Below are positions 51,219 to 52,051 of a stretch of 52,051 nucleotides of DNA, one piece after another (the stretch's first letter is position 1; every line of letters starts with the position of its first letter). The stretch spans positions 1 to 52,051 of the forward strand of contig CAMMVQ010000007.1 of NCBI GenBank assembly GCA_946500425.1, given 5' to 3'. Position numbers and translations under genes: made by a program. The stretch comes from an uncultured Mollicutes bacterium. Its GTDB lineage: Bacteria > Bacillota_I > Bacilli_A > RF39 > UBA660. The notes under the pieces are model-generated. The model had not been told where the DNA came from and searched no databases. It worked only from the letters and a program-made list of their open reading frames with translations.

Positions 51219-51249
51219 CCTTTTAATTATTAATGTATAAATTGTAAAT

Positions 51250-51298
51250 AAAGACATATTTTTTACTAGAGGTGTTAAAGTGAAAAAAATATGTCTTT
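51250..51298 (+). terminator. 15-bp hairpin overlapping the start of the carboxypeptidase gene
   Basis: AAAGACATATTTTTT (51250-51264) pairs perfectly with AAAAAATATGTCTTT (51284-51298), followed by TT. The 19-base loop holds the AGAGGTG ribosome site and the GTG start (51280) of the next gene. It probably terminates the pdp transcript and may also affect the start of the next gene. Confidence 0.75.
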
Positions 51299-51783
51299 TT
51301 ATTATTTGTTTTGTATTTGGTCTTTTGGTAGTTAGTGCTGAAGGACAAGAAACAACTACCGCCACTACTACGACTAAAGAAAACGTGGTGGAAAGTAATA
51401 TCGATGAAAGTGGTAAAGTAAACGAGGAGGAAGAAAGCGGTGGCCTTCTAACGGACGGGAAAAGCGCCATAATAATTGAAGCTTCAACTGGAAAAGTTAT
51501 ATATGAGAAAAACGCTCATGAAAGATATGCTCCAGCTTCTATGACTAAGATAATGAGTATGATTCTAATCATGGAAGAAATTGAAAAAGGAAACTTAAAA
51601 TGGGATGATGTTTTAACAACTAGCGAGTATGCATCTTCGATGGGTGGAAGTCAAATATTTTTACAACCAAACGAAAAAATGAGTGTAAAAGATCTTTTTA
51701 AAGCGGTAGCGATTGGTTCAGCAAATGATGTGGCAGTAACCAAAAAGCAGTCGCTAGTTATAAGCGAAGAAATAATAATATAA
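51280..51783 (+). pseudogene. D-Ala-D-Ala carboxypeptidase (DacA/DacF type), interrupted after residue ~153
   Basis: GTG start behind AGAGGTG. Signal peptide (1-20), then a Thr/Glu-rich linker (20-55) and the transpeptidase domain: catalytic SMTK (Ser87, Lys90) and SAN (147-149) in AIGSANDVAV. From about residue 154 (base 51740) the sequence changes to KKQSLVISEEIII and stops, where family members continue with an AE helix, the KTG motif and a C-terminal domain (about 380 residues in all). The product would be inactive. The break coincides with the start of foreign DNA, so this is gene disruption by insertion. Confidence 0.85.
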
Positions 51784-51831
51784 CTACTTTTAAACCTTAT
51801 GTTTTAAAGTATTATTATAAGCTTTATATTT

Positions 51832-51853
51832 AAGCCATGTATATGGCTTTTTT
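51832..51853 (+). terminator. Terminator or attenuator in the element's leader
   Basis: AAGCCAT (51832-51838) and ATGGCTT (51843-51849) over a GTAT loop, with a T run, 7 bases before the ribosome site of the next gene. Confidence 0.75.
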
Positions 51854-51870
51854 ATTTTGGAGGTGTAAAA

Positions 51871-52051
51871 ATGTCAGTTTTTAAAATAGAGAAAAATAGT
51901 AATTATACAGTTATGTCTAATTATCATTTAAGAGATCATAATTTATCATACAAAGCAAAAGGATTGTTATCATTTATGCTTAGTTTGCCTGAAGACTGGG
52001 ATTATTCTTTGGCAGGTCTTTGTTCTATAAGTAAAGAGGGTAGAGATGGAA
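51871..52051 (+). CDS. Replication-initiator/helix-turn-helix protein of a mobile element (5' part)
   Basis: The first 60 residues are visible from an ATG with GGAGGTG: MSVFKIEKNSNYTVMSNYH, LSYKAKGLLSFMLSLPEDW, LCSISKEGRDG. This N-terminal helix-turn-helix module (relaxed or replicated elements, 'replisome organizer' type) is common near one end of integrative conjugative elements and some phages of Firmicutes. The gene runs off the window. Confidence 0.65.
   Translation, partial: MSVFKIEKNSNYTVMSNYHLRDHNLSYKAKGLLSFMLSLPEDWDYSLAGLCSISKEGRDG

Follow-up and report, generated by a model that had tools for sequence, protein, structure and literature searches.

Intervening elements have been reported in sigK, spsM, spoVFB, spoVR, gerE and yabG (PMC4191935, PMC5595907, PMC10747680). 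Like skin in sigK and SPbeta in spsM of Bacillus subtilis, the element described here carries a serine recombinase and splits in frame what appears to be a sporulation gene, in this case dac. As in those systems, precise excision would restore the gene, which has a promoter of apparent mother-cell type; for the dac element, we infer that excision takes place. Unlike skin and SPbeta, the dac element has new targets, a new host lineage and an attP inside the recombinase gene, and it is not phage-like in the parts seen. The gin element in gerE of Bacillus cereus ATCC10987 (PMC5595907) is likewise a non-phage element with a serine recombinase in a sporulation gene. However, gin measures 28.6 kb and has three recombinases, whereas the dac elements have one large serine recombinase (LSR) and measure 2.1 to 16.6 kb in complete examples. 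The NCBIfam models closest to the LSR are the SCC recombinases CcrA, CcrB and CcrC (CcrB, E=6.6e-36), and SCC is likewise a cargo cassette with its own recombinase. The LSR nevertheless scores 124 bits against CcrB, short of the equivalog cut-off of 900, and its target is dac and not rlmH. Sporulation gene-intervening elements with an LSR are known; the targets, the unusual multiplicity and a recombinase gene that spans its own attachment site are new.

Two halves of a carboxypeptidase gene and the crossover point

The window, which is the whole stretch of DNA analyzed, is contig 7 (C7; 52,051 bases) of source genome G000 (1.2 Mb, 50 contigs). The closest relatives of the element are in records titled uncultured Bacilli, Erysipelotrichaceae, Tenericutes and Candidatus Onthousia, with animal guts as the source. 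The features on C7, and their counterparts on contig C6 of the same genome, are as follows.

51236..51262, plus strand: sigma-E-like promoter of dac (TATA at 51236-51239, 15-nt spacer, CATATTTT at 51255-51262)
51280..51728, plus strand: 5' half of dac (S11 D-Ala-D-Ala carboxypeptidase), with signal peptide, SMTK and SAN; Pfam Peptidase_S11
51727..51728, plus strand: crossover dinucleotide GA (attL), center of the attP inverted repeat
51729..51833, plus strand: displaced last 34 LSR codons and stop (CGSNQKAVASYKRRNNNITTFKPYVLKYYYKLYI, then the stop), from frame-specific conservation
51742..51751, plus strand: right arm of the attP inverted repeat, AAAAAGCAGT; partner arm on C6
51832..51859, plus strand: intrinsic terminator directly after the displaced LSR stop (7-bp stem and T run)
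51871..52051, plus strand: HTH_36/replication-initiator-like element gene, ended by the contig edge
G000:C6:49360-50164, minus strand: 3' half of dac, adjoining the LSR gene
C6, before the LSR-side crossover: other arm of the attP inverted repeat, ACTGCTTTTT, from the attP reconstruction

The initial annotation had proposed that a carboxypeptidase gene is cut here by an integrated element with a visible boundary, and it had suggested a search for an integrase or serine recombinase, for the missing 3' part, for a common core between the halves and for an uninterrupted gene in related genomes. The dac open reading frame in the window (51280-51783, GTG start, 167 aa) has the signal peptide, SMTK and SAN that had been read in it and matches Peptidase_S11 with E=1.2e-29 over profile positions 11-109 of 239. 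KTG is absent, and the family likeness ends right after SAND. A profile search of the G000 contigs located Peptidase_S11 positions 101-238 at C6:49750-50166 on the minus strand, and an LSR gene of 571 aa precedes this 3' half on C6. Thus, the proposed interruption holds, and the alternative of an old truncation is refuted, as the 3' half is present in G000 next to the LSR. When the halves were joined at GA, we obtained an intact, in-frame enzyme of 412 aa with SANDATMVFAE at the junction, in agreement with the suggestion that the gene is restorable by precise excision. Uninterrupted genes were found in related genomes with S[AG]NDA intact.

The crossover had been placed at about 51740, with 14 foreign codons before the stop. 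We instead place it at GA 51727-51728, about 12 bases upstream, with the LSR-side crossover at L006 6152-6151. There are 17 element-derived codons (VAVTKKQSLVISEEIII) rather than 14, because AGTAAC (51735-51740) lies within the element and is a near-repeat by coincidence. With the halves joined at AGTAAC, the product would read SANDVAVTARDATMVFAE, with 7 surplus residues unseen in intact relatives, and AGTAAC is also missing from several left ends. Alignment of the halves thus did reveal a common core, but it was GA. In all 11 of the 11 elements with both ends, GA is the only common dinucleotide that gives an in-frame S[AG]ND[AG] on joining. Every readable intact relative has the motif S[AG]NDA (in a scan of 29 loci, of which L028 was misread by the scan); G089, a genome from the genus of G000, has SANDATVVFAE. 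The reconstructed attP, ACTGCTTTTTAGTAACAGCGAGG-GA-TGTGGCAGTAACCAAAAAGCAGT, has ten-base arms and an asymmetric center, which fits the expectation for an LSR site. The predicted attB is TCAGCAAATGATGCTACC and the predicted attP is AGCGAGGGATGTGGCAGTAACC.

attP and the recombinase gene

The LSR contains Resolvase (PF00239, 9e-30), Recombinase (PF07508, 4e-17) and zinc ribbon (PF13408, 7e-9) domains. These three domains in one protein, together with an inverted-repeat attP whose asymmetric core is common with attB, are those of an LSR element. The crossover is downstream of every one of these Pfam domains. After integration, the reading frame of the LSR enters dac out of frame (SEGCYHGFCGKNSRYRRKVC, then a stop), and in the circle form that we reconstructed it continues into the left end (SEGCGSNQKAVASYKRRNNNITTFKPYVLKYYYKLYI, then a stop) to give 588 aa. 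As read from the sequence, the LSR gene extends across the attachment site that the LSR uses, and its displaced tail would be rejoined to it only in the excised circle. Because attP lies inside the LSR gene, integration would swap the conserved last 34 codons for out-of-frame host codons.

The tail is present in 18 of 385 genomes and, where its context was read, lies at the left ends of dac insertions. Among 12 distinct tails, the third codon position had 33 changes, compared with 18 at the first and 16 at the second, so the LSR frame is kept. Amino-acid changes numbered 28, against a permutation mean of 47.7 and a minimum of 31 (2000 permutations). Synonymous codon differences came to 291 in the LSR frame; the two other frames gave 39 and 102. 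Several other elements have hairpins of differing sequence at the same place after the tail stop. The tail is short or absent in about eight elements and is therefore not essential.

About 20 bases upstream of the LSR, there is a conserved 66-aa open reading frame (L006:7831-8031, minus strand) that holds the same place in relatives. It has no Pfam match and is a candidate recombination directionality factor. In L101-L123, a highly conserved block, TTCTTTTTTTcATTTATTCtAATAAGTTTAAATGAGGAGG, follows an inverted repeat upstream of this small open reading frame.

An attachment site inside the integrase gene, broken on integration, is likewise a property of the archaeal "suicidal" SSV-type integrases, and a 2021 review described such an arrangement as exclusive to archaea (PMC8371274). 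In the SSV-type enzymes, which are tyrosine recombinases, the cut yields two inactive parts, whereas the dac LSR keeps all of its known domains and exchanges only its C-terminal tail. It therefore has one hallmark of the self-splitting integrases, an attP inside the coding sequence, and lacks the other, the separation of the catalytic parts of a tyrosine recombinase. Mycobacteriophage BPs (PMC4557955) also has attP in a gene whose product is altered at the C terminus by integration, by 33 residues in BPs; there, however, the gene is that of the repressor and not of the recombinase. We found no precedent for a bacterial serine-recombinase gene spanning its own attP in the literature searched, the coverage of which excludes most subscription journals.

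Recurrence at dac and targets of related recombinases

We followed dac in a family sample of 145 genomes and the LSR in a wider scan of 84,980 species genomes and IMG/VR. dac is intact in most of the 145 genomes and is split after SxN (site A) in about 12. A second position about ten residues before KTG (site B) is split in at least 5 of the 145, by elements whose LSR family is unrelated to that at site A. The wider scan gave about 30 LSRs with 55-99% identity to the G000 LSR, and nearly all are followed directly by the 3' part of an S11 gene, joined at the same codons. On ten single contigs (L068, L070, L071, L106, L111, L117, L118, L122, L123 and L127), the whole element lies with both dac halves. 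Among 33 downstream dac halves, we counted 29 intact ones and 2 cut short by contig ends; the remaining 2, L103 and L149, stop exactly at site B. In L149, site B is followed by an unrelated second LSR, 65% identical to that of L069, so dac there is cut by two elements. Some decay would be expected of a dead gene, and there is none among the 33.

The G000 element is interrupted by the ends of C7 and C6. Its left end is 97% identical to G233 and 85% identical to G347. The replication-initiator-like gene that had been annotated downstream of dac is real, and a full-length homologue (L176:1587-2360) matches HTH_36 at 8.1e-8. The near-identical L101 element (LSR 99%) encodes a 2115-aa SNF2/helicase protein and a 167-aa open reading frame that is also present in G000. 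Contig C30 of G000 (L184, 13.2 kb) carries a VirB4/TraG-like ATPase, an M23 peptidase and an SSB-like open reading frame. It is plausible that C30 is part of a conjugative element and perhaps the missing middle of the G000 dac element, although no link was found. Complete elements range from 2.06 kb (L122), with little beyond the LSR and the preceding small open reading frame, to 16.6 kb (L071). Cargo in L068, L070, L071, L106, L118, L123 and L178 varies by sequence impression, which also gave the types: AlaRS-like, aminoglycoside phosphotransferase-like, GNAT, Nudix, and PHP/aminotransferase/radical SAM clusters.

At L079:11291-11791, the site-B element of G110 has an HTH_36 gene with 90% DNA identity to that of the G000 site-A element, and the LSRs of the two elements are only about 25% identical. 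A common HTH_36 gene in elements with different LSRs suggests an exchange of integration modules between site-A and site-B elements. A search of IMG/VR by attP pattern gave no free circular form, and no assembly contained an excised circle or a rejoined dac. Plasmid and phage records held LSR relatives at <60% identity only and no element like the one in dac.

In a tree of 99 LSRs, we observed one supported clade of 71 with separate groups by target site. The labels cover rows whose downstream gene matched the PBP set of G000, and dac was the sole query for S11 genes. Two groups are in S11 genes, at SxN (n=30) and, in dac paralogues, at SxxK (n=3 or 4; L051 is labelled S11_SxN by match start, yet it lies among the SxxK rows and is probably mislabelled). 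Three groups are in one class B PBP, at SxxK (n=5), at SxN (n=8) and at a PIQQ(I/V)TAV motif (n=6). Rows labelled "none" include a sister clade that adjoins a fragment of an ABC-type binding-protein gene and 13 untraced Clostridial rows; the latter were compared with the G000 PBP set alone, and some of their PBP targets may have escaped detection. The TIGR02214 equivalog model identifies the class B PBP as SpoVD, at 748.8 bits (cut-off, 688), and an mraY-like gene lies downstream of it. Thus, dac, its paralogues and spoVD are the targets of all five LSR subclades with an identified target. Neither this clade pattern nor the position of attP inside the LSR gene is visible from the window alone.

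No intact spoVD was present in 17 of 17 other genomes searched, which were chosen for their spoVD-type LSR. The gene is in three or four pieces in G056, G050, G068, G134 and G023, and its pieces are still open even where there are four. In these genomes and in L256 and L257, we noted spoVD cut by up to three different LSR elements, with SxxK, SxN and the PIQQ motif as the sites. A third gene, spoIVA, is split at one recurrent point in about nine genomes (G089, at C6:29596 and C2:30319; also G052, G021, G046, G002, G093, G111 and G141). An LSR of another, more distant family adjoins the spoIVA 3' part in 3 of the 3 looked at (G089, G052 and G021). A second LSR of G000 (L196, G000:C2:71000-75700), 41% identical, adjoins a gene fragment that encodes 204 aa of an ABC-type substrate-binding protein. 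This is probably a further split gene, and one that is not linked to sporulation.

A probable sporulation link and competing explanations

G000 encodes Spo0A (C17) and SpoIVA (C2). Across the family sample, 116 genomes had both dac and SpoIVA, 5 had dac only, 7 had SpoIVA only and 17 had neither (Fisher p=1.2e-12; dac scored as present at a best E-value <1e-50, with the split copy of G140 counted, and counts tallied by hand from two tables of genomes that are not independent). CATA occurs at -40..-20 in 20 of 27 dac genes with readable upstream sequence, where 2.4 were expected and 10 was the maximum in 2000 shuffles. All of these 20 genes have T at -17, 15 have A at -18 and 16 have A at -16. 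The resulting consensus, (C/T)ATA-N15-CATAnTTT, fits the known consensus for sigma E of the mother cell, and the dac promoter appears to be of the sigma E type. spoIVA is a mother-cell gene. The co-occurrence with SpoIVA, the sigma-E-like promoter and the splitting of spoVD by the same LSR clade all favor dac as a sporulation (mother-cell, DacB-like) carboxypeptidase over the general wall-maintenance gene of the initial annotation. It could instead be DacF-like (forespore), in which case excision would be heritable.

The sequences themselves establish the two halves, their core and the LSR, as well as the recurrence, the empty sites of relatives and the position of attP within the LSR gene. 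We consider it likely that this is a sporulation gene-intervening element of the skin/SPbeta type with new targets and that dac is restored by excision in the mother cell. Relatives of the LSR cut other spore-making genes at active-site codons, which suggests that the cut genes are mended by excision at sporulation. On this reading, an LSR-borne element would have integrated by recombination, at the dinucleotide GA, between its attP and the codons that directly follow SxN in dac. The N-terminal product, which has SxxK and SxN and lacks KTG, would be a secreted and inactive stub, and the C-terminal part would have no promoter; as a sporulation gene, dac could be split without harm to growing cells. 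Excision by the LSR in the mother cell, possibly aided by the 66-aa protein as directionality factor, would restore dac; the forespore would retain the element, by analogy with skin in sigK and SPbeta in spsM. The free and integrated LSRs would differ in their C termini, and one may speculate that this helps set direction. We found no sigma-E-like (CATA-type) promoter upstream of the small open reading frame and LSR operon, a point against the presumed mother-cell expression of the LSR. A more ambitious form of this explanation is tentative: the LSR clade would be specialized on the active-site codons of sporulation PBPs, its elements would be excised together in the mother cell, with the cortex needing up to three simultaneous rearrangements, and at least the dac-SxN subclade would be a bacterial form of self-splitting integrase, with a serine recombinase, in which the C-terminus swap aids direction.

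A little less probable still, and in our judgment unlikely, is that this is a commonplace integrative element with an LSR, for which conserved active-site codons serve as attB owing to their low variability across hosts; dac would then be knocked out, and excision would have no developmental role. LSRs are known in conserved sites of coding genes, such as that for a prolyl isomerase (PMC10083194), the sister LSR clade adjoins an ABC-type binding-protein gene unrelated to sporulation, and the LSR operon has no visible sigma E promoter. However, the targets are non-random in all five subclades identified, another LSR family also splits spoIVA, 0 of 33 split dac genes have decayed and the spoVD pieces, up to four, remain open. 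Young insertions alone may account for the intact dac halves. Sporulation is being lost in this family, as SpoIVA and dac are both missing from several of its genomes, and the split genes might be remnants in such lineages, with elements piling up in unneeded dac, spoVD and spoIVA genes. This origin is improbable, as the element-bearing genomes tested keep SpoIVA and, in all but one, a Spo0A match, the dac halves are intact, and dN/dS for the 3' half between G000 and G089 is about 0.10. That assembly or binning joined unrelated DNA has a negligible chance: two contigs of these MAG data do end inside the element, but about 30 independent assemblies show this junction, and the single contigs with the whole element and both dac halves refute it.

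These results add dac, spoVD and spoIVA to the interrupted sporulation genes, at high frequency and in the small genomes of uncultured gut Bacilli. About a dozen new recombinases now have a predicted attP/attB pair, and there appears to be a bacterial integrase gene with its own attachment site inside it. It may be a mistake to annotate such split sporulation genes as broken or to call their hosts asporogenous.
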